Below are positions 179 to 22,834 of a DNA stretch of 33,118 nucleotides, piece by piece. Both the position numbers and the translations under genes were made by a program. Each line of letters opens with the position of its first letter. Within the stretch, counting starts at the first letter, position 1. A model generated the notes under the pieces. That model saw only the letters and a program-made list of their open reading frames with translations. It was not told the origin of the DNA and did no database searches. This DNA comes from Mycoplasmataceae bacterium (GTDB lineage Bacteria; Bacillota_I; Bacilli_A; Mycoplasmatales; Mycoplasmoidaceae): the NCBI GenBank assembly GCA_031275175.1, contig JAISPD010000018.1:1-33118 (forward strand), written 5' to 3'.

Positions 179-3764
<3,586 letters not shown>

Positions 3765-3806: not shown

Positions 3807-4928
3807 TTAATTAATTATTTTAAATCTTGTTCACGAATTAATCTTGTTCATTTTATTAAAATCCGTTTTATCTATTTTGCCTACATAATTAAAAATGTTA
3901 GAAGTAAATAGGAAATTTTTACGAATAATAATTCAAAGTTCTCCGACGTAGTGTGGGTTATTATTGTTGATAATAACTATGTCACCAATTTGTGCTTTTT
4001 TAACATTTCCTCTTGGTTTAACATCACGATATAAAATGCGTGTGTTAGTGCTTCTAATAAAACCTTCAGTTAAATCACCGCGGCGAAAATGGTTTTTGTA
4101 AGCAAGAATTTTTGTTTCGTTTGCTTGTAAACCTTTAATGATGTGAGCTTTCAATTTGACGACACTATCATTTGATTGTGGCCGATTAAAGTGCTTAGCA
4201 TATTTTTTTAAACTAACTAGTTCTTGATCGGAAGCAGGATAATTACCAATAAAAATTTCTTGAATCTTTGTGTATTCTAGAATGTCGATTGCTTGCTGTT
4301 CAATTGATGAATTACGGTGTTTTTCAATTGTTGGTAATTTAACTTGGTTTTTTGTATTAGGTTGTTGTCCAAAAAAAGCCGATTGACTTGTAATAAAAAC
4401 TGCGTTTGGTAATTTCAATGCTGCATATTTTTTATTACAACGCATAAAATATTGTCACCCTAATCCAGTTTGATCTAAAGGATAAAAATTATGCATCACA
4501 CTAATTCTGGATTTGTTAGCCTCAAGAGATAAAACATCGTCAATAAATTTGTTATCATTTGATGCATTAATTTGAATATCTAAGCCTTGATAGGTGGCGT
4601 CTGCAACGACACTTGCTAATAGTGGAGTATCCAATCTGAGACAATCAATGCCAAATGATTTTAATTTAGTAAATTGATAGTCATCATCTAAAACTTTTAG
4701 CACTTCTGGGCCAATATCGGCGATAATGTAAAACCCGAGCTTTTTAGCTAATTTAAAAAAATTTAGGTATTTTGGCAAATTAACTTTCAATGATGGTTGA
4801 TCTAAATAAAAAAGTGAAGTGAATATCTTACTAAAACCATTAGCTTTGGCTTTAGTTAGATATGTCTGGATTTCTTTAAAATCACTATGACGAGGATAAA
4901 CGGAAATGCCTAAAACAACTTTACGCAT
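3807..4928 (-). CDS. mupG: 6-phospho-N-acetylmuramidase (MupG family, DUF871)
   Basis: 373 residues, close to the ~350 of Staphylococcus aureus MupG. The family hydrolyses MurNAc-6-phosphate-(1,4)-GlcNAc, formed by the MurP PTS, in the cytoplasm. The N-terminal half (MRKVVLGISVYPRH, then GFSKIFTSLF and FYIIADIGPEVL) reads like the TIM-barrel of DUF871. The C-terminal end (GDIVIINNNNPHYVGEL, NYVGKI, SWTRF) matches the small cyclophilin-like domain. I chose the ATG at 4928; a TTG three codons upstream is possible. The ATG lies one base after the murQ stop, so translation is probably coupled. The gene is last in the murP-amiE-murQ-mupG operon. Function is inferred from family and context; older annotations call these outer surface proteins. 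Confidence 0.85.
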
Positions 4929-4929
4929 A

Positions 4930-5829
4930 TTAATCAATAACTTTTCTAAGTATACCGTGATTTTGTTTTAATAGTTTGACAGCCGTTGGATAATCCACAT
5001 GTTTTTTAATCATGACTACCGCTTCTTTAACGCGATTTTTAGTTATCTGTAATGTACGATTTATTATAGTTTCGTTCGCATTTGTTAAAGTTTTAACAAT
5101 ATTATGTACGCGGCTTACTAGTTTAGCGTTTTTTGGTAATACATCTACCATTAAATTACGATAAACTTTGCCCATTTTAATCATTGCTCCAGTGGAGAGC
5201 ATATTGAGCACCATTTTTTGTGCTGTACCAGATTTCATCCTTGTTGATCCCGTAATAACTTCAGGACCAGTGATGACTTCAATTTTAATCTGTGCAAGCT
5301 TACCAATATCAGAATTCTTGTTGGTTGAAATGGCGACTGTCCTCGCTTTAAGTTGTTTAGCAAATTGTAATCCCCTAACGACATATGGGGTTCTTCCGCT
5401 AGCGCTTATACCCACAAGCGTATCGTTAGAACTAAATTTAATTTTTTTTAAATCATTAATCGCTGCTTGTTGATCATCTTCTGCTCCTTCTACAGCATTT
5501 AAAATAGCTTTTTTACCACCAGCGATTAAACCAATAACTAAATTAGAAGGTGCACCATAGGTTGGCGGTATTTCACTAGCGTCTAAAATACCAAGTCGAC
5601 CACTAGTACCAGCTCCTATATAAACTAATCTTCCACCTTTAATAAAAGTCAACACAATTGCATCAATAGCTTTTGCTATATTTTTAAGTTGCGTAACAAT
5701 TGCTTTAGTAATTTTATTGTCTTCTTGGTTAATAGTTCTAGCGATATTTAATGACGACATCAAATCAATATCAATAGATTTAGGATTAACGCTCTCTGTG
5801 ATTATTTTTTGTAAATTAATTTGCTTCAT
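4930..5829 (-). CDS. murQ: N-acetylmuramic acid 6-phosphate etherase
   Basis: 299 residues, the normal length for MurQ. The enzyme splits the D-lactyl ether of MurNAc-6-phosphate, giving GlcNAc-6-phosphate and D-lactate in the cytoplasm. The SIS fold is shown by GAGTSGRLG (residues 72-80). The catalytic region DASEIPPTYG carries Glu86, and VEGAEDD at 113-119 carries the second conserved acidic site. GSTRMKSGTAQKMVLN is the family signature. It starts four bases after the amiE-like stop and is followed one base later by mupG. The presence of murQ in an organism without peptidoglycan points to use of external MurNAc rather than wall recycling. Confidence 0.96.
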   Translation of the reverse strand: MKQINLQKIITESVNPKSIDIDLMSSLNIARTINQEDNKITKAIVTQLKNIAKAIDAIVLTFIKGGRLVYIGAGTSGRLGILDASEIPPTYGAPSNLVIGLIAGGKKAILNAVEGAEDDQQAAINDLKKIKFSSNDTLVGISASGRTPYVVRGLQFAKQLKARTVAISTNKNSDIGKLAQIKIEVITGPEVITGSTRMKSGTAQKMVLNMLSTGAMIKMGKVYRNLMVDVLPKNAKLVSRVHNIVKTLTNANETIINRTLQITKNRVKEAVVMIKKHVDYPTAVKLLKQNHGILRKVID

Positions 5830-5833
5830 ATTT

Positions 5834-7402
5834 TTATAGTTTAAATCCTAAAGCTTCATATATTTTTTCTGAAACAGTTTGTCCAATTCGATTTAATCCA
5901 TCACCCAAATAAACATCGTCACTATTAGGATTAAAATAATTATATTTGCCAAAAAAATAATTTTGTTTCGGTAATGCTTCATCGTTTCTTGAAAGCAAAG
6001 TATTAATGGAATTGGTTAAAATCGCAATAACTATTTTATTTTCTGAGTCAATGATTGTAAAAGTTCCAGTTCACCCATCGTGACCATATGTTGATTGTGA
6101 TGGTTGTCTTCCAAAGATGTAATTATTTTGATTCCCTGATTTTACTTTTCAACCAATACCAAATTGAAAATTATTTGGATCTTTAGGGTTTGCTATAGGC
6201 GTAATTACTTTATCAATTAATGATTGATCAAAAAATCTGTGGTTTCCATATCCGCCACCATTTAACATTATGCTTTGTAAAATATTTAATTCACCAGCTG
6301 TAGAAAATAAACCAGCGTGTCCAGATATACCATTCATACTATAGTATGAAACTTCATCATGAACCTCGCCCCTAATTTGCACTTTACGCATATCTGTAAA
6401 ATCATCTGGCGTGTCATTTCTTAACCCTTGACGCGTATTACCTTGAAGTTCTGTTGCCGCTAAATTACTTAATGATATTTCCCTTTTTAGCGGATTGTAC
6501 ATTGTGTGTTTCAAACCTAAAGGATGATAAATATTATTTTGATTAAATTGATCAATCCGTTGCCCAGTGATTCGGTTAACTAAAAGATCAACCAACATAA
6601 AATCAATATCGCTATATTGTTGATCATTACCAAAAATAAAATCAGGTTCAATCAATATCAGAGCGAGTAATAAACCGTCAAAATCTCTTACCTTGTGTTT
6701 ATTACCATCAACGCAATCCTTGCTAGCACTAACAATGTAGTCATAAGGAGAAGCTTTTAATCCTGAAGTGTGTGTTAATAAGTTGTATATGGTAATGTCT
6801 TGAAGATTCATTGAACCTTTTTCTTCACTATTCAAACTAACCGGTACATTAGCAAATTGATGATTAAACTCTGGTATATATTTACTAACCTTATCATCCA
6901 ATGAACCGATTTTGTGATTTTGGATTAAAAATTGAATGGCAAACATCCCCGCATACATTTTCGTGTTGGAAGCTAAGTCATACATCGTTTCATTAGTTGC
7001 CTTTACCCTTTGCTCGTCGGGTAACAAATCACCTACAGTCCCACCTGTACCACCAATGTCAGCAGATTGACCATCTTTGTACATGTAAGCATAGCCAAAG
7101 GTTTTTTGATAAAAAATTTTATTATCTTTAGCCGCACTTATTTGTATGCTTGGGAAAGCTAATGAAGTACTAGGGTTTGCACTTGATTTATTAATACTAC
7201 TTTTGCTCCCCTCCCAAACGCGCTCATTTATATAAAAGTCTAAAGCATCTAATAAAGTCTGATCAGCACCAACTGCTGTTGGATTGTTCGTATAATCTGT
7301 TAACATCGGATATTTGGTAGTTGAACAAGCAGAAACAGTTATCGGAGTGATTAAACTAAAAGTGCTTACAGATAGATAGATGAATTTATTTTTTAATTTC
7401 AT
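5834..7402 (-). CDS. Surface lipoprotein serine hydrolase, class C beta-lactamase fold, AmiE/YbbE-like
   Basis: 522 residues. The N-terminus has a lysine-rich start, a hydrophobic stretch and a lipobox ending VSAC with Cys26, so the protein should be lipid-anchored outside the membrane. Family motifs are all visible: SxxK as S145-N-T-K148, the LLTHTSGL block near 208-215, Y263-S-D for the YxN/YSD motif, and HDGWTGT near the C-terminus for the third box. In Bacillus subtilis a protein of this family, AmiE (YbbE), is an N-acetylmuramyl-L-alanine amidase inside the mur operon. The same setting here suggests it strips peptide from muropeptides before MurP import. The exact substrate is inferred; a general esterase or DD-peptidase activity is an alternative. 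The frame needs TGA as Trp to reach the stop at 5834. Confidence 0.82.
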
Positions 7403-7409
7403 TAATTTT

Positions 7410-9068
7410 TTATGCTAAATTTCAATTGATTTTTGCATTATTTTTAAATATTTTATAACCTAAGAAAGTAAATCCACACCCTGAAATATAACCCAAAACT
7501 AGACCTGAAATATAAACCACATAACCTTGTCAAACACCTGCAGATGAAGTAATCATTGGCAATGCTAATAAACCACTAGGGCCTGTAGGCATTAACAACC
7601 CCATGTTAATGTGTCCCCATTGATTTAATGCCCCGACAAAGAATCCAGGAAGCATCGCTCCTATACATGCCGTAACAAATGGTACAATTCTTGGCAAAGA
7701 AACTCCATATATTAGTGGTTCCCCAATACCTAAAAATCCAGGAACAATTGCACTCGCAATTTGTTTACGGAAAGTACCACCTTTATTTGCAATAAAGAAC
7801 ATTGCAATCGCACATCCAACTTGACTAGCACCAGCTAAAGCTAATACAGGGAACAAAGTATTAATATTGTATTTAACCATTAAAGCAAAATAAACTGGTA
7901 AGAATCCTTGATGAATTCCAAACACTACACAGATTAAGAAAATACCAGCTAATAAAGCATCACCAAATGGAGCGAAAATTCCTTGAGTTAAGAATTGGAA
8001 TGCTGTACTAACTGCCAAGAATAAATAACCAGAAAGCGGAATGATTAATAGGAAATTAAATACCATGAAAGTTACGATAACTAAAAAAGGAGTAAATATT
8101 GGACTAACTACATCTGGCATTCATTTGCTAACAAATTTTTCAAAATAAATAGCACCAGTAATTCCTAAAATTACCCCAAACATTGAACCATGTGGTGAAC
8201 CTAATGAATCTAATGAGTGACCTACTAATGTGCCATCTAAATAATGATAATCAGCATATGAACTTACTGTTGTTAAACCTGATGTAAATCAGTTATATCA
8301 AAGATGATTAACATCAATGTTAATCCCTAGGAATGCCCCCCCAAAGATAGTAACCGTCACTGGGTTCGCTCCTTCTTTAAAATCAACAGTTACAGTGGTA
8401 GTCGTCCCCAGAGCGGTTCATAATTGATTAGTAAAGGCATTAGACATAAACAATGCACCAATAATTGCACCAATATATCCTTTCCCGCCAAAAGCTTCGG
8501 CAAATCTTCAACCAAAAATAACTAAGAACACTTGCAATCAAACCGTATTCACGATATTAAATACCGAATATCATTTTTGAAGTGTTTCGTGACCTTGTCA
8601 ATTGTTTTGCACAGATGATTGCATGATTCCTGCAATACCAGCAAATAGACCAGCACCGATAAAGGCCGGAATTAAGGGAGCAAATATTTTGGCAAATTTA
8701 CTTAAAGCAGTTGTTATTAAATTACTACGCTTTTGTTGATTTTCAAATTTAACTTGATTGGCAACTTCTTTTAATGATGGTGTAGTACTATTTGTTGGAG
8801 TGCTATCTGCAATTTTTTTGAACTCGTCATAAACTTTAGCTACTGTTCCAGGGCCCAAAATAATTTGATATTCGTCACTGCCTTTAGGATGAATAACATT
8901 AATTACACCCGGTACTTTTTTAAGCAATTCTATATCTAACACGTCTTTTTGTTTTAGTTTTAATCGCAATCTAGTCATGCAATTTTCATAATCAAGAATC
9001 CCATATTTTTTAACTAATTGATAAAGATCATTAGCCATTTTTTGTTGACTGATTTTTTTACTACTCAT
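7410..9068 (-). CDS. murP: PTS EIIBC permease, probably for MurNAc or MurNAc-GlcNAc
   Basis: 552 residues. The N-terminal EIIB domain carries the phosphorylation cysteine C30 in ENCMTRLRLKL. A charged linker follows at about 110-130. The multi-spanning EIIC domain (SKFAKIFAPLIPAFIGAGL onward) includes the GIGEPLIYGVSLPR loop typical of the glucose/sucrose/MurP superfamily. There is no EIIA domain, as in Escherichia coli MurP, so a separate EIIA must serve it. It is the first gene of the operon, with a 7-base gap to the lipoprotein gene. The MurNAc specificity comes from the neighbours murQ and mupG; sequence alone would also allow sucrose or trehalose. It is preceded by a good promoter that overlaps a palindrome. 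Confidence 0.87.
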
Positions 9069-9097
9069 ATTTTTTTGTGTCTCTGTATTACAAATAA

Positions 9098-9126
9098 ATT
9101 ATATATTACTATGGTGTCATAGTAAA
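9098..9126 (-). promoter_or_regulatory. murP promoter with embedded 20-bp palindromic operator
   Basis: On the minus strand a -35 TTTACT (9126-9121) and a -10 TATAAT (9103-9098) are exactly 17 bases apart. The -35 and spacer are covered by a perfect inverted repeat, TTACTATG-N4-CATAGTAA, at 9106-9125. A dimeric repressor bound there would block RNA polymerase. A MurR/RpiR-type regulator is the natural candidate by analogy with other mur operons, but none is encoded in this window. I did not see a second copy of the palindrome. Confidence 0.72.
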
Positions 9127-9203: not shown

Positions 9204-9386
9204 ATGGAAATAACATCAAAAGAAATATTAGAAATGTCTGAGACAGAATGACAAGCTTTTCGTAAGAAATCTTGAGAACGTAAACGAGAATATTACGCTC
9301 AAAATGTACCTGATTGATATCTTAGAGATCAAGAAAACTTTGCTAAATTTTTGGAAAGTAAGCAAACATCAAAGAAAAAAAATTAA
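9204..9386 (+). CDS. Small hypothetical protein, 60 residues
   Basis: I do not recognise it. The frame runs from ATG to TAA with three Trp codons, all TGA, so it disappears under the standard code. The product is highly charged and aromatic, with LEMSETEWQAFRKKSWERKR followed by REYYAQNVPDWYLRDQENF and a Lys-rich tail. It has no signal or membrane segment and probably forms a helical, soluble and perhaps nucleic-acid-binding protein. It is divergent from murP, and its stop codon overlaps the purD stop on the other strand (shared TTAA at 9383-9386). The compact fit between two genes and the TATAAT just before its ATG argue that it is real. Confidence 0.6.
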
Positions 9387-10627
9387 TTTAAACCAATGTC
9401 TTTGCGAAAATACATTCTTTTAAAATTAATATTTTTAATTTCTTTATAAACTTTTACATAAGCATCTTTTACACTTTTACCAACTGCTACAACCGATAGA
9501 ACTCGTCCACCATTTGTTAATAACTTATTTTCTTTAATAATGGTATTAGCAAAAAATACTAATGGTTGATGTTGAATGTTTATTTGATATCCGATTTTAT
9601 AATTTTTAGGGTATCCATTCGATGCTAAAACAATATTAATTGCTGTGCCTTTTTTTCACAAGAATTTAAAAGTATGCAACTGATTTTTGATTACAGTTTG
9701 AAACAATGCTACTAAATCAAAATTCATTAAAGGGACTATTGATTGACATTCTGGGTCGCCCATCCGTACATTATATTCCAAGCACTTGCATCCATTATTT
9801 GTAATCATAATGCCAAAGAATAAAAAACCGTGAAAATCTAATTTAGATTGTTTGATGCCATTCAATGTGGGAATCATGATATGTTTGGTAAAATCATCCA
9901 TAACTTTTTGATTAACGTGTGGATTAGGGCAAACCGCTCCCATTCCACCTGTATTAAGACCAACTCCATGTTCATGAATCGTTTTATGATCTTGTGCTGA
10001 TACTAGCGGTACCATGGTTTTTCCATCAGTAATGCAAATGATTGATGTTTCAACACCAGAGAAAAATTCTTCCATCACAATGGAATTACCCGCATCTTTT
10101 AAAGAATGATCAATCATAAAATCTGTGATTGTTTCTCTCGCTGCCTTTAAATTTTTGCAAATAACAACGCCTTTCCCAGCAGCTAAACCATTTGCTTTCA
10201 CAACGACTGGAAAAGTAGTGGTGTTCTCTAAATATGCCAAAGCACTATGAGGTTCTGAGAATACTTTAAATTTAGCAGTTGGAATCTTAAAGCGTTCCAT
10301 AAATTGTTTAGCGTATGTTTTGTTACCCTCTAATTGTGCTGCTTTTTGTGATGGACCAATAATATCTAATTTATTTTGTTTAAATAGATTAACTATTCCC
10401 TCTACTAATAGGTTTTCTGGGCCGACAATGGTTAAATCAATGTGATTGTCTTTGGCAAAATTTACTAAATTTTCATTAGTAAATAAATTCACATTGCAAC
10501 ATTTACTAATCATTTCTGTACCAGCATTACCAGGAACAACATAAATAGTAGTTACCTTTTTACTCTGTGCCAGTTTCCAAGCCAAAGCATGTTCACGACC
10601 ACCTGACCCAATTAACATAATTTTCAT
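9383..10627 (-). CDS. purD: Phosphoribosylamine--glycine ligase
   Basis: 414 residues, the normal size. The enzyme makes glycinamide ribonucleotide from phosphoribosylamine, glycine and ATP, the second step of de novo purine synthesis. Visible features are the N-terminal MLIGSGGREHALAWKL, the ATP-grasp region VVVKANGLAAGKGVV, NTGGMGA, and the metal-binding segment CLEYNVRMGDPECQ (family consensus EFNARFGDPE). I start at the ATG at 10627; a TTG two codons upstream is less likely. It is separated from purH, purN and purM by a permease-apt pair on the other strand. De novo purine genes are rare in mycoplasmas. Confidence 0.96.
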
Positions 10628-10669
10628 AACCAAAATTTACTCTTTATGATAAGTATTATAAAATTAATT

Positions 10670-12295
10670 ATGAGCGCGAAATATCATATTGTTAAAAAAC
10701 TTTCAGAATCAATCAATGCTGCTAGTCCTTCACCAATTGAGGTAATCCCTACTAAAAAGAAAATTGGATTTGTTTCAACCGTTAGTCTAGTTATAGGTTC
10801 TTCAATTGGTGCAGGAATTTTTATTAAGAACCATGAAATTTTAAATAATGTTCATGGATCAATTTTATTTGCCATTATTAGTTGATTAATTTCCATTATC
10901 GGTATTTTAGCTTTAGCACTGGCGTTACCAGAAATTTGTAGCGGCATTCATAATAATCATCAAGGAATAGTTGGATGGGTAAGAAAATTTAATAGCAAGA
11001 TAATTTTCTTATGTAGTAAAAATTTTATGAGTTATCTGCACTTATCAATCTATTATTTCATTATGCCCTTCTACCTTGTAATGACATTACAAGAAACATT
11101 TGGTTTTGCTATTGAATGGTATTGACTAATCTTGATTTCGTTTGCAATTTCTAGTTGATTTATTTGAATTACAGGTTTATCTACCAAAGCTGCTAATTTA
11201 CAAAATTGAATTGTTACAGCAATAAAGTTTTTGCCAATTATTTTTGCTGCAATTGCTGGTTTTATTTTATTAGGTTTAGGTAAAGGCACAGACAATACAA
11301 TGTTTCCTGTATATCCTGTCTATGATGGGCATTTACCTCTGTTCAGTGACAAACTTCCCGTCTTAGGGATTCTAAGTTCCATCCCCGCAATCTTTTTCGC
11401 CTTTGATGGTTTTTATTCAACTGCTGGGATTCAGGGAGTTATGAAAGAACCTAAGAAAATTTCTTCAGCAATGGGTTTAGGAATGGCAATTGTTAGTGCA
11501 TTAGACATAATTATTTCGTTATCATTATTGTTTGGCACACATAGTGGAAAAATATCTGATTTACAATTATCCAGATGAATTTTTCAAATTGCTAATTTAT
11601 GCGTCGCAATTGGTATTTTAGGCATTATCAATGGTGTATCAGTTTATGCAGGAAATTATTATCGCGATTTAATTAATAACATGGAATTGCCATTTGCTGG
11701 TTGATTAAAATCTCATGCCAAAAATAATAGCCCAACCATGGGGGTGTTAACAAGTTATTTGATCACGATTTTTTGATTCATTATTTTTACAATTATTGGT
11801 CTGAATTTTTTAAACACCAGTCATTATGGAGCAATCCCTGGATGAGAGAATAAAAATTATGGTAGTCAATATGTAATGAATTTGTATTCCTTTGCAGATT
11901 TATTAGGTGATTGGAATGCTGCCTTTGCTTTTATCATAATTTTATTGGCAATTTTAGGAGTAATGCGTAATCGTAAAACTAACCATATTAAAGTAACTCA
12001 TTCGAAATTTTTATTACCTAGTGGAATTGTAAGTTTATTAATTATGGGGTCAGGAATATTTTTCATTCCCATTCAATCCATTGGTAATTTAGTTTATATT
12101 ATTGATTATTACGACGGTACTATTCCTATACCACCAGGAGTAAATGCTCATATTACAATTGTAGATATTGTTGGTGCTGCTTCACAAATTGTGGTGTTAT
12201 TTTTATTCCTTGGAATAATGTTAATTCCCGCCATTGTCCGTAATCACAATGATCATAGAAAACGAATAAGTAAAATGTCTCATAAACATTACTAA
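10670..12295 (+). CDS. APC-family amino acid permease
   Basis: About 541 residues with roughly 12 hydrophobic segments. After a short polar N-terminus comes VSLVIGSSIGAGIFIKN, the TM1 signature of the amino acid-polyamine-organocation superfamily. FFAFDGFYSTAGIQGVMKEPKK is the matching TM6/loop region with the conserved FDG and EPKK. The frame is interrupted many times by TGA (Trp). An ATG at 10646 in the same frame would add MISIIKLI. I prefer 10670 because a TTTACT / TAAAAT promoter pair (10636-10641 and 10659-10664) overlaps the longer version. The TAAAAT box lies five bases before this ATG, suggesting a leaderless mRNA. The substrate cannot be read from sequence. It is followed 21 bases later by apt. 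Confidence 0.85.
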
Positions 12296-12316
12296 TTTCG
12301 TTTAAAATTATTGGGT

Positions 12317-12862
12317 ATGTCCACAAATATCCAGAAACTTATTGCTAAGAACATTCCTAACATTCCCAATTTTCCAATCAAAGGTGTACAGTTTAAAGAT
12401 TTGACACCAATTTTAGCAAAGCCTAAAATCTTAAAAATCGTTATTAATGAATTAGTTAAAAAAGTTAAAAAGATGAAAATAGATTACATCGTTGCCCCAG
12501 AAACACGTGGTTACTTCTTTGGTATTCCACTCGCTCAAAAATTACATATTCCGTTTATTCCTGTACGTAAAAAAGGTAAATTACCACGTCCAACAATTTC
12601 GGTTACTGAAAACATTGAATATAGTAAAGTATCTTTAGAAATTCATCGTGATGATATTAAGCCAAATGCTCGTGTATTGATTGTGGATGATTTATTGGCG
12701 ACTGGCGGAACAATTAAAGCGATTATAAAACTAATTAGATTATTAAAAGCAAAACCAGTTGGTGCATTAGTGGTCGTTGAATTACCAGAATTAAATGGTG
12801 CAAAGCAATTAAATTCTTTGGGTATTTTAGTTGATGCAATGATTAAACTTCCGGGTAAATAA
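12317..12862 (+). CDS. apt: Adenine phosphoribosyltransferase
   Basis: 181 residues, the standard APRT length. The enzyme joins adenine to PRPP to make AMP (purine salvage). The PRPP-binding motif VLIVDDLLATGGT is complete. The start GVQFKDLTPIL and the APETRGYFFG loop are also characteristic. The ATG at 12317 is preferred over a TTG at 12311. A TAAAAT box at 12303-12308 ends eight bases upstream and no Shine-Dalgarno is seen, so this mRNA may also be leaderless if the gene has its own promoter. It ends 11 bases before the convergent purH stop, with no obvious terminator hairpin between. Confidence 0.96.
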   Translation: MSTNIQKLIAKNIPNIPNFPIKGVQFKDLTPILAKPKILKIVINELVKKVKKMKIDYIVAPETRGYFFGIPLAQKLHIPFIPVRKKGKLPRPTISVTENIEYSKVSLEIHRDDIKPNARVLIVDDLLATGGTIKAIIKLIRLLKAKPVGALVVVELPELNGAKQLNSLGILVDAMIKLPGK

Positions 12863-12873
12863 AATCACTAACC

Positions 12874-14370
12874 TTAATGTTTAAAGTGACGAATACCAGT
12901 AAATACCATTGCAATATGGTGTTCGTTGGCAGCATCGATCGAGGCTTGATCTTTTATGGAGCCACCTGGTTGAATAATTGCTTTAATACCATATTTAGCA
13001 GCTTCATCAACAACATCACGGAATGGAAAAAAAGCATCAGAAGCTAATACCGTTGCTCCTTTACCACGTTTTAATGCATCCATTGCTGGTCAAATTCGAT
13101 TAACTTGACCACCACTAATACCTAACGCTACTCCATGATGTGCCACCACAATTGCATTCGATTTAACAAACTTCACTACTTTCATAGCAAATTCTAAATC
13201 TTTCATTTGATCTACTGTGGGTAAAGTATTTGTAACCACCTTCATGGTTTCAAAAAATTTCTGATCTTCTGATTGAACTAATAGTCCACCATCAACTGAA
13301 GTCATACAATGTTGATCTTGCGGTTGATGGTTGATTTTAATAACTCTTAAATTCTTTTTAGATTGCAAAATTGCTAGTGCATCTTTCTCATAACTAGGAG
13401 CAGCCACTATTTCTAAAAAGATTTTAACCAATTCCTGAGCAGTCGCTTTATCAACCTTACAATTAAAAGCAACAATTCCTCCAAAAATACTAGTTGGATC
13501 TACATGGTAGGCTTTTAAATAGGCATCTAAGTCATCTTTACCAACGGCAAAACCACACGGTGTGTTGTGTTTTAAAGCACAACAAGCTGGAGTATCAAAA
13601 TCGTTAACTGCTTTTCAAGCGATATCCACATCTTTAATATTGTTGTATGAAAGTTCTTTACCATTTAATATTTCAAATGTGTTCATCGAACCACCAGTTA
13701 TAGTTGAACCATAAAAACAGGCTGATTGATGAGGGTTCTCACCGTAACGTAACATTTGAGTTTTTTTAAATGAAGTTGTATAGAATGGTGGATATTCATC
13801 TTTTAACATAAATTGACTAACAGCCCCATCATACGCACTCATTAAATTAAATACTTTCCCAGCTAATTTACGTTTAAAGTCTAAAGTTATATTGCCATCA
13901 GTCATTTGTTTTATTAGTTCTGGGTAATCATTCTTATCATAAATGACAACAACATCTTGAAAATTTTTGGCAGCAGCTCTTAACATTGTTGGCCCACCAA
14001 TATCAATAAATTCTAATTTTTGTTCAAAAGTCAAATCTTCTTTGACTTTGTCAAAAAAAGGATAAAGATTAACAATTACAAAATCAATTGGTTTAATTTG
14101 CTGGTTTGTAATTGTTTCCATATGATTTCTATTCTCACGTTTTGCTAAAATGCCTGCATGAATACTAGGGTGTAAAGTTTTAACACGACCATCTAAGATT
14201 TCTGGGAAATGAGTAATTTCATTTATTTCAATTACTGGTATTTGGTTGTCCTTTAAATACTTATAAGTTCCACCAGTAGAAATAATTTGCACATCGTTGG
14301 TAACGAAGTACTTAGCTAATTCTAAAATACCATCTTTTTCATAAACACTAATTAATGCACGTTTTTTCAT
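12874..14370 (-). CDS. purH: Bifunctional AICAR transformylase / IMP cyclohydrolase
   Basis: 498 residues. It carries out the last two steps of IMP synthesis: formylation of AICAR with 10-formyl-THF, then ring closure. The N-terminal MGS-like cyclohydrolase domain shows [26 protein letters not shown] and [14 protein letters not shown]. The transformylase domain carries the catalytic pair K267-H268 in ALKHNTPCG. The C-terminus has [19 protein letters not shown] and [10 protein letters not shown]. Two internal TGA codons encode Trp. It follows purN by 11 bases. A functional folate one-carbon supply would be needed. Confidence 0.97.
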
Positions 14371-14381
14371 ATTCGTTTAGA

Positions 14382-14945
14382 TTATAAAAATAGTTTGATT
14401 GCTTGCAATAATAACTTATGTTCATGCACGGCAACTTTTTTTGCCAAACTTTCCGGTGTATCATCAGAAGTTACATTTACCTTCGCTTGTAAAATAATGG
14501 CTCCAGCATCAATTTCTTCGTTCACAAAATGAACTGTACAACCAGATTCGCTTTCGTGTGCATTAATCACTGCTTGATGTACGTGAAGACCATACATACC
14601 TCTGCCACCATATTTTGGTAATAATGCAGGGTGAATATTAATAATTTTATTTTTGTAAGACTTTAGTATTTCACCTTTTAAAATTCCCAAATACCCAGCT
14701 AACACAATAAGATCAACATGAAATTGTTGACACAATTCTGAGATAGCATTACTTCGGTCTGTGTTTGTCTTGGTAATTGTATACGTTTTAATGTTGTGTT
14801 GTTGTGCACGCTTTAGTGCATAAGCATCAGTGCGTGATGAGATCACTAAAGATAACTCTACTTCTAATTCGTGGTTTTCAATGGCATCAATAATTGCTTG
14901 TAAATTGGAACCGTTACCACTTACTAAAACAGCTATTTTAAACAA
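14382..14945 (-). CDS. purN: Phosphoribosylglycinamide formyltransferase
   Basis: 187 residues. It transfers a formyl group from 10-formyl-THF to GAR, step three of purine synthesis. The N-terminal phosphate loop is VLVSGNGSNLQA. The catalytic triad is N103, H105 (INIHPALLPKYGG) and D146 (VNEEIDAGAI). This is the folate-dependent enzyme, not the formate-dependent PurT. It overlaps the end of purM by 13 bases, so the two are likely translationally coupled. Confidence 0.96.
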   Translation of the reverse strand: MFKIAVLVSGNGSNLQAIIDAIENHELEVELSLVISSRTDAYALKRAQQHNIKTYTITKTNTDRSNAISELCQQFHVDLIVLAGYLGILKGEILKSYKNKIINIHPALLPKYGGRGMYGLHVHQAVINAHESESGCTVHFVNEEIDAGAIILQAKVNVTSDDTPESLAKKVAVHEHKLLLQAIKLFL

Positions 14946-15946
14946 ATTGGTTTCCTTCCTTTTGCGATGTATCCAATTTCATAAGCCGTTTCCCCGTTTT
15001 GTTTTAAAATTCGCATAGTTTTTTTGGCATCTTTTGGTGTCACACAAAGTACAAAACCAATACCCATATTAAAAGTGTTGTACATATGGTCCAACTCAAC
15101 ACCTCGTTCATTAATTAATTTAAAAATCTTTGGTAACGGATAACTATTTTTATGAATCACAATTTGCATGTTGGTTCTTGTTAGCATTCTTGGGACGTTT
15201 TCAATAAAACCACCACCAGTGATATGTGCCATCCCTTTAACTTTGACTTGTTTCATTAAAGTTAAAACTGGTTTAACATAAATCTTGGTTGGTTTTAATA
15301 ATTCTTTTCATATTGGTTGATGATTAAAGTACTCATTTAAATTTTTAAAAACTTTTCTAATCAATGAAAACCCATTCGAATGACATCCACTAGCACTAAT
15401 ACCAATTAAAACATCACCAATTTCAATATTATTACCATTAACTATTTGTTGCTGTTCTACAACCCCCACAGAAAAACCAGCTAGATCATAATCGCCAGCT
15501 TTATAAAATCCAGGCATTTCCGCTGTTTCTCCACCAATTAATGCACAATTTGCTAATTTACATCCTGCGACAACCCCTTTAACCAAATCTCTAGCTATAA
15601 ATGCATCTAATTTACCGCAGGCAATGTAGTCAAGGAAAAATAATGGGGTTGCTCCATGACATAAAATATCATTCACACACATCGCTACGCAATCTATCCC
15701 TACCGTATCATATTTTTTTTGTTGACAAGCAATCGCAATTTTTGTACCAACACCATCAGTGCCAGAGACTAAAATCGGTGCTTGCATTCCTTTGGGGATT
15801 TTAAACATGCCAGCAAATGAACCAAGATTATTCAAGACTTGTTTGCTATAAGTAGATTTTGCTAAATGTTTGATTAATTGAACTTCTTTATATCCTTCCT
15901 GGATATTAACGCCACTTACGGCATAGGTTATTTTTTTATTTGCCAT
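14933..15946 (-). CDS. purM: Phosphoribosylformylglycinamidine cyclo-ligase (AIR synthetase)
   Basis: 337 residues, as expected. It closes the imidazole ring of FGAM with ATP to form AIR. Motifs are GTDGVGTKIAIA, CVNDILCHGATPLFFLDYIA, GGETAEMPGFY, GISASGCHSNGFSLIRK and HITGGGF. I start at the ATG at 15946 (MANKKITYAVSGVNI). The frame is open further upstream, but that would run deep into phoU. The gene overlaps phoU by 11 bases. PurN, PurM, PurH and PurD are here, while PurF, PurL/Q/S, PurE/K, PurC and PurB are outside the window. Confidence 0.96.
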
Positions 15947-16631
15947 GGTCTTTAATGAATTGCTTGCTTTGTTTACCAAAAAATAAATCAGGTTGCTTAA
16001 TAAAAATGAAATTTTCAGAAATATTAGCAACGTGATCCATTAAACGTTCAATGTGCTTAATAATGATAATAACACCTTGAAATAATTTTTGAATTTGGTC
16101 AACTGAAAGTCTTTTCAAGATTTCTGATAATTTCACAATTAATTTAGCGTAATTATTTCTAAATGTCACATGCACCTTTTGACATGTTTTATAAGTATCG
16201 ATTGCCGGTTTAACTTTTAGTGAATCATTTACTTTTTTAATCGCTATTAGTGCATCTTTAATTAATGCTACAATTAAAGTTCGCATCTCGTTTGTTATTT
16301 GATTATGCACAAAGAATCGTGCAGCATTAATCGCATAATCTGCCATTCTTTCTAAATCTTTAATTGAATTTAATACGGCAATGATATATCGTAAATGATT
16401 AGCTAATGGTTCATTTTTAGAGATTACCCAAATGCAATCATCTTGAATTTGTGCTTCAAAATGATTAGAAATATCCTCCATTCGATAAACTTCTTCTAAT
16501 TCTTTTTGTGAAAAAGTTTTATTTTTAATGTTCTTACAAATAAATTCCCATGTTTTATACACATGTTCACAAAATTTCAGAAATTCAGACTGAAGTTCAC
16601 GTTCCGATTGTTTCATTATTTCGTAGTTCAT
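15936..16631 (-). CDS. phoU: PhoU-family phosphate-signalling protein
   Basis: 231 residues with the two-repeat helical PhoU fold. The first repeat has SIKDLERMADYAINAARF and the second IKHIERLMDHVANISENF, both versions of the ERxxD metal-binding consensus. PhoU normally links the Pst ABC transporter to control of phosphate uptake. Here it is in the same strand run as pstB but separated from it by two SemiSWEET genes, and it overlaps purM. No PhoR/PhoB is visible, so its role is probably direct restraint of transport. A Met five codons in is an alternative start. Confidence 0.9.
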   Translation of the reverse strand: MNYEIMKQSERELQSEFLKFCEHVYKTWEFICKNIKNKTFSQKELEEVYRMEDISNHFEAQIQDDCIWVISKNEPLANHLRYIIAVLNSIKDLERMADYAINAARFFVHNQITNEMRTLIVALIKDALIAIKKVNDSLKVKPAIDTYKTCQKVHVTFRNNYAKLIVKLSEILKRLSVDQIQKLFQGVIIIIKHIERLMDHVANISENFIFIKQPDLFFGKQSKQFIKDHGK

Positions 16632-16641
16632 CGTGGTTTAT

Positions 16642-16983
16642 CTAATCCTTCTTGTAGTGTGACTCTCAATATGCAGATTCAGTCATGTTAGCTTTTTTAG
16701 CAATCCGAATATTTTTAAATTTAATGGATAAGGTTACAACAGCGATGGCAACACAGAATGCATTAGAAATTAAGATCGGTAATCCTCCTGATAAATTACC
16801 ATTTATTGTCATTCCCAAGCCATAAATTACAAACATGATGCAAGCAAATGTAAAAATTAAATACATAGGTAAGTTAATGCCAATCGTATTCTTAGTGCGT
16901 AAAACTTTTATTAAATTAGGCAGTGAAAAAATACCAATGAAAACTGCACCAATTGTCATGATAATGGTTACAAATTCATCCAT
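16642..16983 (-). CDS. SemiSWEET (PQ-loop) family transporter, copy 1
   Basis: 113 residues with TGA as Trp near the end. It has three membrane helices at about 5-27, 38-60 and 66-88. The first ends in SLPNLIKVLRTKNT and is followed by INLPMY, a PQ-loop (here PN) signature of bacterial SemiSWEET proteins, which dimerise to move sugars along their gradient. A cytoplasmic tail RIAKKANMTESAY follows. It is one base after the end of the neighbouring copy and ten bases before phoU. The sugar substrate cannot be read; some PQ-loop proteins move other solutes. Confidence 0.82.
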
Positions 16984-16984
16984 A

Positions 16985-17431
16985 TTATTTCTCCTCCACT
17001 ACTTTAACCGTTTGTTCATCTTTATGACTAAGGGAACGAATCTTGTGTTTATATTCATCATAAATTGATTTAAGTTGTTTGCAATATTGCGTTTCAGTAA
17101 CATTTGCTTTCTTTGCTCGAAAATAATTTTTTAATTTTCAACCAAAAATTACGGAAGAAATCAAACCACAAATTGATTGAGCAATAATTAATGGTAATCC
17201 AGAAGATAAACATTTCCCAATACTCTTATCCTTGCCAATACCATAACCTAAAACCATACATATGCCACCAATTAAAAATAAAAAGCAACCCACTAAGTAA
17301 ATCGCATACATAGGAATATTAATGTGTGTGGTATTTCGTGTTTTAATTAAATTAATTAATTGCGGAGTAGTAAAAATCGCGATCGCTCCCGATGCAATAA
17401 ACCCAACCCACATGTATCACATTAAATCCAT
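16985..17431 (-). CDS. SemiSWEET (PQ-loop) family transporter, copy 2
   Basis: 148 residues. The start is placed at the ATG at 17431 (MDLMWYMWVGF, one Trp as TGA), which aligns with the MD start of copy 1 and lies four bases after pstB. Three helices are predicted at about 5-28, 42-62 and 75-95. The canonical motif TTPQLINLIKTRNT is followed by INIPMY. The tail is about 45 residues, charged, and begins FRAKKANVTETQY, nearly the same as the start of the copy 1 tail. The shared tail shows the pair arose by tandem duplication and suggests a common partner. Heterodimer formation is possible. Confidence 0.82.
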
Positions 17432-18495: not shown

Positions 18496-19239
18496 ATGCC
18501 ATTACTACAAAGAAAAAAGGTTATAAAATTCATCCCTTGCATTAATTATGCAGAAATTAATGACCATGTATCCGCTTTAGTTTGCTCTCTTGTCAAAAAA
18601 AATAAAAATACCGTTCTGGGTTTTAGTGTTGGAATAACAATGGAAGATTTGTATAACAAAATAATTACTAAAGCACATAAACAAAAAATCAGTTTTAAAA
18701 ACACAATTACTTTTAACACAGATGAATATCTTGAGACTCATAAGCACCACCAAAAGCACACTAAGACTAGTTTTATGAAAGAACATTTATTTTCTAAATT
18801 AGACATTAAATTAGAAAATACCAATTTCCCAACCTCAAAAAACTATAAAACATACGATAAAAAAATTAAAGCACTTGGGGGAATTGATTTATTAATCTTA
18901 ACAATTGGTGTTAATGGTTATGTCGGTGCTAATGAACCAGATACAAAATTCCATTCATGAACTCATATACAAAAACTTAGCGAGACTACCAAAAATAATT
19001 TAATGACTTTATTTGACGAAAAAATTAATGTCCCTAACCAAGTCATCACTATGGGCATTCAATCTATTTTACAAGCTAAAAAAATTGTTCTAATCGCTGT
19101 AGGTGAATCTAAAGCGGCAGCAGTTAATAAATTATTCAAAAATAAATATAATCCGCTTTGACCTGTTACTACCCTCATTTATCATGATGATGTAACTTTA
19201 TATGCGGATACAAAAGCATGTAAATTGATACAGAAATAG
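18496..19239 (+). CDS. nagB: NagB-family (glucosamine-6-phosphate deaminase-like) protein with altered active site
   Basis: 247 residues, the usual size for Gram-positive NagB, which converts GlcN-6-phosphate to fructose-6-phosphate and ammonia. Family landmarks are FNTDEY (74-79, with D76), SFMKEHLF, GGIDLLILTIGVNG, ANEP (Glu147) and the Lys in GESKAAA. Several normally fixed residues differ. The loop usually written NGHIGFNEP reads NGYVGANEP, so the catalytic His (E. coli His143) is Tyr142. The phosphate loop ATGSTP-like segment reads SVGITME, and the Arg matching E. coli Arg172 appears to be missing. It may be a weak or altered enzyme rather than a full NagB. A true NagB would complete the MurNAc route after NagA. 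Confidence 0.78.
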
Positions 19240-21109: not shown

Positions 21110-22834
21110 ATGATAAAATATAAATTGTTAGTAATTGATTTAGATGGCACTTTATTATCAAAATTTAAACACATTTCACGTTTAAATTTTTTAGCAGTTA
21201 AAGATTATTTACAACAAGGTGGTAATGCAATCATTGCAACGGGGCGAGCAATTGTCTCTGCAGAAAAATATGCTAAACAAGTTTATGATTATGCAGGCGT
21301 CGATGGTAGTTACGTTATCGCTTTCAATGGAGCTTACATTAAAAATGTTAAAACTGGCAAAACTTTTAAATCCAAAATACCTAATGACATTGTGCAAGAA
21401 ATAAAAGAATTTGCTAGACAAAATAAACTATTAATTTGAATCTACAATGAATATGCCACAGAGCGTAATGCAGTATATGTATCACATTCTTTTGCTAACT
21501 TAGTAATTAGATTCGGCAAAGGTGTTAATTTACTTAAATTAAGAAAGGACCATAAAGATTTGTCTGCTTACAAAATTAATTTATTGTCATTCCGTAAAAA
21601 CAAAATTAGTAAGGCCATCACCTTTTTAAAAAATAAGTATAAAAATAAATTAACTTTTTCATATTCACATAAACGACTAATTGAAATTAACTTTAAAGAT
21701 GTTAATAAAGGTTTTGGCGTCAAATATGTGGCAGACCAACTAAAAATTGATCATCAACAAATTGCAGTTTTGGGTGATTCTAATAATGATTTACCAATGT
21801 TTGATGTAGCTAATCTGAAAATTGCCATTAAACCTTTAAGCGATTCTCTAAAACTAAAATCCACATATTGTTTAGATTACAAAAAAAATGCTGTGAGTGA
21901 TGCGATTAATAAATATATCATTAACAATAATGAAATTCTATTAGTCGCTAGTGATTTAGATGGCACTTTATTAAAAGATGACACTAAAGAAATTGATAAG
22001 CAAGCCAAAGAAATGATTGTTCAATTAATTGATAAATACAATAAAAAATTTGTGATATGTACTGGTAGAAGTCTTGACAATGCAATGCTCATAGCTAATT
22101 ATTTAAATGTGAAAAATCAACAGAATCTTTTTTCCATTGGAGCTAATGGTGGGTGCATTTATGATGTTTTCCATCAGCGTTTTATTTATAAAAAACTAAT
22201 AGATAAAAAAGTTGCTAAACAAATCATTGATATATTTTTAGACTTTCAAAATAACAAAAAACCACTTAAACAAATTGCCATTGAAGCTTTTACAGATGAT
22301 GATCCTAAAAATTTAGCTAAAAATAAAATCCCAAAACATTATTCTATTAATCAAAAATTCGTGCATGATTATTATGCGATTAAACATCCGGGAATGACCA
22401 AAAATTTTTGGATTAATCGTGAACATGAACCTATCGATGAAAAAACTCCTTTAGATCAAATCATGAAATTTGTATTATTTTTTGAGTCATCCGAAGATAA
22501 AGCACGTGCCTTTGCCTTGTTTGAAAAATATAATAATTTATACGAAGTTTCTTCAAGTGCTAAGCATAACCTAGAAATCATGCCACTCAACATAAGCAAA
22601 GGTAATGCTTTGCAAAGATTATGTAATTATTTAGACATTGATGTTAAAAACACAATGACAATTGGCGATGAAAAAAATGATATATCTATGCTGGCTTTAT
22701 CTCCACATTCTGTTACGCTTAAATCGTCTAGCGAAAGTGTACGTAAAGCTGCTACATATGTCCTAGATGCACCACCAAGTTTGGTTGTGGCTAAGGCCAT
22801 AAAAAGCTATGTTTTAGGAAATAAAAATGATTAG
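21110..22834 (+). CDS. Double-domain Cof-type HAD phosphatase
   Basis: 574 residues containing two complete Cof/YidA-like haloacid dehalogenase units in tandem. Unit 1 (about 1-283) has the nucleophile motif VIDLDGTLL, motif II IATGRA and motif IV VLGDSNNDLPMF. Unit 2 (about 284-574) repeats these as ASDLDGTLL, ICTGRS and TIGDEKNDISML. Each unit also has the large C2 cap expected of Cof proteins. Such enzymes dephosphorylate sugar phosphates, FMN or PLP, and the substrate cannot be read here. Mycoplasmas usually carry several single-domain copies; a fused pair is uncommon. The gene overlaps potA by eight bases. The frame needs TGA as Trp near residue 110. Confidence 0.9.

Follow-up and report, generated by a model that had tools for sequence, protein, structure and literature searches.

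Why would a bacterium that has no cell wall keep genes for taking up and dismantling peptidoglycan? The question is raised by a 33,118-nucleotide stretch from a Mycoplasmataceae bacterium (contig JAISPD010000018.1, hereafter the window), in which a transporter of the N-acetylmuramic acid (MurNAc) type, MurP, is encoded together with an AmiE/PBP4B-type lipoprotein, MurQ and MupG. Peptidoglycan recycling is usually viewed as a housekeeping process that serves the wall of the cell itself, and a wall-less cell that has such a route together with a surface amidase must use the wall of others. With a probability of roughly 80%, judged from sequence, the four genes form a catabolic operon through which a wall-less cell of the Mycoplasmatales uses peptidoglycan sugars made by other bacteria.

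The four genes lie head to tail on the minus strand between 3807 and 9068, in the order murP (7410-9068), the lipoprotein gene (5834-7402), murQ (4930-5829) and mupG (3807-4928). The gaps between them are 7, 4 and 1 bases, the ATG of mupG at 4928 being one base past the stop of murQ, and the genes are presumably co-transcribed. Each reading frame begins with ATG, ends with TAA and has no internal TAA or TAG under genetic code 4. A preliminary description, made from the letters of the window, had reported a compact minus-strand operon of these genes in a cell that reads TGA as tryptophan. All four were found intact at that place, and 15 TGA tryptophan codons were counted across them (10 in murP, two in the lipoprotein gene, none in murQ and three in mupG), while TGG occurs once in murP, once in the lipoprotein gene and in neither of the other two. 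Since the operon genes themselves read TGA as tryptophan, they belong to a code-4 genome, and the possibility that the contig is a contaminant from a walled species was rejected. The homology scores of the four proteins exclude chance as the source of the observation.

The best NCBIfam model for MurP is that of the MurNAc EIIBC permease of the phosphotransferase system (PTS), PRK09586, with 361 bits versus 185 for the sucrose and 139 for the trehalose model. In a tree, the protein fell with MurP, divided by a 100/100 split from E. coli TreB, BglF and AscF and a plasmid ScrA; it joins E. coli MurP at 100/99, and the E. coli type is the one to which it lies nearest there. Its EIIB motif reads CMTRLR in the alignment. 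The preliminary description had held that its proposal would fall if MurP grouped with sucrose or trehalose permeases. That placement did not hold, the scores and the tree both rejecting a sucrose or trehalose transporter, and they support a MurNAc-type transporter distinct from those for sucrose, trehalose and beta-glucosides. The EIIA domain is absent from MurP in a domain scan, and a glucose-type EIIA (144 bits) and an enzyme I (EI, 403 bits) were found in the same assembly.

MurQ passes the equivalog cut-off of TIGR00274 (382 bits versus 302), is 52% identical to E. coli MurQ and matches the H. influenzae MurQ structures with an E-value of 1e-90, which points to a MurNAc-6-phosphate (MurNAc-6-P) etherase. 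The glutamate residues of the DASE and EGAED motifs of MurQ have a catalytic role, and both are present when the protein is aligned with MurQ of E. coli and Bacillus. The product of mupG matches MupG_N with 219 bits and MupG_C with 82 bits (cut-offs 24 and 24.4), as well as the B. cereus structure 1x7f (E 3e-49). It is a candidate GH170-type 6-phospho-N-acetylmuramidase, which would act on MurNAc-6-P linked to N-acetylglucosamine (MurNAc-6-P-GlcNAc).

The lipoprotein matches PF00144 with 138 bits, and its best NCBIfam model is PBP4B, PRK03642 (308 bits); with E. coli YfeW/PBP4B it shares 36% identity. A lipobox, VSA-C, is present, and the active-site motifs SxxK (ASNTK), YSD and HxG (GHDGWTG) were recognized in the alignment. 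The tree placed the protein in a 97/95 clade with YfeW, Priestia PBP4B and the amiE-position proteins of Bacillus and Metabacillus, and this clade excludes the remaining S12 proteins in the tree. Judged by clade and motifs, AmiE and PBP4B are one family, of which the lipoprotein is a member. It is a candidate muramoyl-L-alanine amidase that would be exposed at the cell surface.

The same proteins might also serve plain amino-sugar use, in which free MurNAc or amino sugars from the host or its diet are taken up, the lipoprotein is an esterase or an unrelated S12 hydrolase that plays no part in muropeptide breakdown, and MupG may act on another phospho-disaccharide. The predicted structure of the lipoprotein, a model of moderate confidence (predicted local distance difference test score, pLDDT, 67), matches S12 enzymes, and its fold neighbours are mostly esterases and homologues of penicillin-binding proteins. 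Substrates may vary among paralogs of the MupG family (PMC6262408), and in one related genome, G023, mupG adjoins another PTS. However, the position of the lipoprotein within the PBP4B/AmiE clade and outside the other S12 proteins speaks against this alternative, as do the strong lipoprotein matches, which across the order (320 Mycoplasmatales genomes surveyed, 36 for the window's genus) were found only beside murQ. Moreover, mupG lies one base from murQ here and adjoins murQ in several wall-less relatives. Plain amino-sugar use is considered unlikely.

Whether the cell has a wall of its own was addressed in the window's assembly, which comprises 833 kb in 33 contigs and is 86% complete. The families PF00275 (MurA/AroA), PF08245 (Mur-ligase) and PF00905 (transpeptidase) gave no match in this assembly, whereas the same searches were positive in 14 of 14, 12 of 14 and 10 of 14 control genomes, respectively. 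The absence of wall synthesis, which the preliminary description had wanted confirmed, therefore stands for these three families in an assembly whose completeness keeps it from being final. With TGA read as tryptophan and the three families absent from the assembly, the genome fits a wall-less Mollicute. If the species still made some peptidoglycan, the operon could recycle turnover of its own wall, as happens in S. aureus and E. coli; walled bacteria do use the same genes for recycling (PMC5061867, PMC6262408, PMC9547203), and the incomplete assembly gives this explanation some room. It is nevertheless very improbable, given that three separate wall-synthesis families are all missing and that the TGA tryptophan codons assign the organism to the Mycoplasma/Spiroplasma group. 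A cell that lacks wall genes generates no turnover products of its own, which makes scavenging the best interpretation: the pathway could act only on material from outside.

The partners of such a pathway are also encoded. NagA was found in the assembly, with a nagA-nagB pair at one locus (L215), and a NagB-like glucosamine-6-phosphate deaminase is encoded in the window itself (18496-19239, plus strand); the latter matches PF01182 with 52 bits and TIGR00502 with 172 bits, under the 237-bit cut-off of that model, and is a possible downstream enzyme besides the nagB that neighbours nagA. The presence of NagA, NagB, EI and EIIA in the genome that carries the operon suggests that external muramyl sugar could be converted to fructose-6-phosphate by a route whose substrates and activities are proposed here from gene content, orthology and intact motifs. 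The surface lipoprotein would strip the stem peptide from released muropeptides, and MurP, phosphorylated via EI and the separate EIIA, would import and 6-phosphorylate MurNAc or MurNAc-GlcNAc. Inside the cell, MupG would split MurNAc-6-P-GlcNAc, MurQ would cleave MurNAc-6-P to GlcNAc-6-phosphate and D-lactate, and NagA and NagB would feed fructose-6-phosphate into glycolysis. To use the GlcNAc set free by MupG, the cell would need a cytosolic GlcNAc kinase. A surface amidase would presumably also inactivate muropeptides, and its main purpose might be to destroy those that would trigger immune receptors of the host, sugar use being a secondary role. However, the importer, etherase and phospho-muramidase of the same operon, together with nagA and nagB, point to catabolism, and removal of such signals as the main role is highly unlikely. 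As for the origin of the fragments, the gut or mucosal setting and the feeding on neighbouring walled bacteria suggested in the preliminary description are unsupported, as nothing in the sequence identifies their source.

Related loci were found across the order. MurQ scored above its curated cut-off in 35 of the 320 genomes, and MupG_N was found in 94, paralogs included. Several families have clusters of MurP and MurQ, which frequently include MurR and in some cases MupG. The MurQ and MurP proteins of Mycoplasmatales form clades of their own (93/87 and 99/99, respectively), which indicates an old possession rather than a recent transfer into the window's genome; a recent transfer from a walled bacterium is likewise not favoured by the TGA tryptophan codons. 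The lipoprotein is more restricted. Only four genomes, all from the window's genus, gave strong PBP4B/AmiE matches (>270 bits), in each case adjacent to murQ; outside that genus, the best match reached 77 bits.

Sister species show how the set may vary. The preliminary description had suggested a search of other Mollicutes for the four-gene synteny, and one sister genome, G003, has a mupG-like gene, murQ, the lipoprotein gene and murP in the window's order. Convergent with this MurNAc operon is a set encoding EtfB, EtfA and a flavin adenine dinucleotide (FAD) dehydrogenase (locus L090, 4588-7946). In structure 7qh2, a lactate dehydrogenase that works with nicotinamide adenine dinucleotide (NAD+) and ferredoxin, the dehydrogenase has its match in LctD (578 bits) and EtfA in LctC (397 bits). 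The complex of this type is that of Acetobacterium woodii (PMC9232219). Its occurrence beside the G003 cluster is suggestive because MurQ releases D-lactate. An NlpC/P60-like lipoprotein near the same cluster (L090, 3650-4552) resembles a peptidoglycan endopeptidase by eye, but it had a Pfam E-value of only 0.09 and no match to a solved structure, and was not used as evidence.

A second sister genome, G027, carries murQ, the lipoprotein gene, a GHL10 lipoprotein gene and a GH20 lipoprotein gene in one same-strand run, with murP divergent; the GHL10 and GH20 beta-hexosaminidase lipoproteins follow murQ and the amidase gene (locus L091, 4063-8131). We take E. coli DigH to be a GHL10-type protein. 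DigH breaks down denuded glycan strands, from which the peptides are missing (PMC12288456). The two arrangements fit two ways to split the disaccharide among species, by MupG inside the cell or by GH20 outside it. MupG would need MurNAc-6-P at the non-reducing end, whereas GH20 would suit GlcNAc-MurNAc as left by lysozyme. It is suggested tentatively, at a little less than even odds, that some wall-less members of the genus are specialised in eating the peptidoglycan of others. Surface lipoproteins (the amidase, and GHL10 and GH20 in the sisters) would digest wall fragments outside the cell, MurP would import the sugar, and the disaccharide would be split by MupG or by the external GH20, according to species. 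In one of these species, the D-lactate from MurQ would in turn be burnt by a flavin-based lactate dehydrogenase. The alternative partner sets, with MupG inside or GHL10 and GH20 outside, lend themselves naturally to comparison. The proposal also makes testable why several Mollicutes keep MurP and MurQ, and how reduced symbionts draw carbon from the surrounding community.

Several observations weigh against the scavenging interpretation. The absence of the wall-synthesis families is provisional in an assembly of this completeness. Two of the proteins score under the curated equivalog cut-offs of their models: MurP reaches 361 of the 516 bits set for PRK09586, yet this is by far its best family, and the lipoprotein reaches 308 of the 385 bits set for PRK03642, its genus mates reaching 343 and 378. 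The set itself is not uniform. Within the window's genus, murQ is patchy (five of 36 genomes), and the lipoprotein gene of G023, one of the four genomes that have it, carries a single frameshift. The mupG-like product of G003 is only 28% identical to the MupG of the window, a MupG_N search of the 320 genomes found no MupG in G027, and the mupG copies of G023 and G020 sit elsewhere, away from the murQ cluster, all of which suggests that MupG is replaceable. Finally, murR is absent from the operon in the window and a conserved operator was not found, so that MurNAc-specific regulation is not supported.

The preliminary description regarded the operon as a mix of the S. aureus and B. subtilis versions. 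The gene identities are supported, but the combination is not unprecedented. In E. coli, the murQ-murP-yfeW operon, with yfeW as its third gene, likewise joins MurP, MurQ and a PBP4B-family protein (PMC5061867); unlike the window, it lacks mupG, is adjoined by a divergent murR, and belongs to a cell that builds a wall and recycles it. S. aureus has mupG, murQ and murP together in mupG-murQ-murP-murR, for the uptake and cleavage of MurNAc-GlcNAc (PMC6262408, PMC9547203), but this operon has no AmiE/PBP4B gene, and the cell is walled, with its own autolysin Atl supplying the fragments. All four genes of the window are included in a single run in the walled Metabacillus kandeliae (L042), murQ-murR-murP-mupG-PBP4B/AmiE. 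This run and the murQ-murR-murP-amiE-nagZ-ybbC operon of B. subtilis, whose amiE-position proteins share the clade of the window lipoprotein, differ from the window in their walled Bacillaceae hosts, an extra murR and another gene order; B. subtilis, in addition, uses NagZ outside the cell (PMC5061867).

Spiroplasma and other Mycoplasmatales are likewise wall-less and have murP, murQ, often murR and sometimes mupG, with MurP and MurQ in common clades. The presence of MurP and MurQ in wall-less Spiroplasma has already been published (PMC3563533, PMC4607517, PMC5726471, PMC12453411), and the surprise that the preliminary description attached to such a route in a wall-less cell is reduced accordingly. 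What does appear to be new is the candidate surface amidase in a wall-less lineage, which among the 320 genomes had no strong match outside the window's genus, together with the different outer enzymes encoded next to it in sister species.

Upstream of murP, a putative sigma-70-type promoter, TTTACT-17-TATAAT, lies at 9098-9126 on the minus strand and agrees with the consensus at 10 of 12 positions. The end of the operon at 9126 given in the preliminary description holds if this element is taken in, the genes themselves ending at 9068. Such matches are no commoner in the region than in shuffled sequences, chance matches being common here. A perfect 20-base inverted repeat (9106-9125) overlaps the putative promoter and might, as a weak candidate, be an operator; the AT-rich window has many perfect palindromes with arms of 8 bases (30 listed), the repeat was not conserved in relatives, and no operator common to them was found.

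Other arrangements of the same families were seen in related loci. In G023 (L214, 5147-8425), a MupG 63% identical to that of the window is encoded not beside murQ but beside a PTS with EIIC, a lactose/cellobiose-type IIB and EIIA_2. Near murQ in two Acholeplasmataceae/Tenericutes metagenome-assembled genomes (MAGs; L051, 3318-5942, and L055, 2334-4952), a protein of about 870 residues fuses a NagZ-type GH3 domain with MupG_N and MupG_C, and a similar long reading frame at L080 (3363-5981) may be a further case. In a Rimicaris foregut MAG (F_SnakePit_00002; L009, 1030-8265), the genes flanking a murQ are two copies of murP and another, distantly MurQ-like gene (23% identity).

Elsewhere in the window, a full-length pyruvate:ferredoxin oxidoreductase, to our knowledge unusual for a Mollicute, is encoded at 243-3764, convergent with the operon. 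Genes recognized by eye as purD, purH, purN and purM are retained at 9383-16030, unlike in most reduced Mollicutes. Two adjacent small membrane proteins of PQ-loop/SWEET-like type, with matches just under the Pfam cut-offs, are encoded at 16642-17431, and a single protein encoded at 21110-22834 contains two tandem HAD phosphatase stretches (Cof-type, PF08282).

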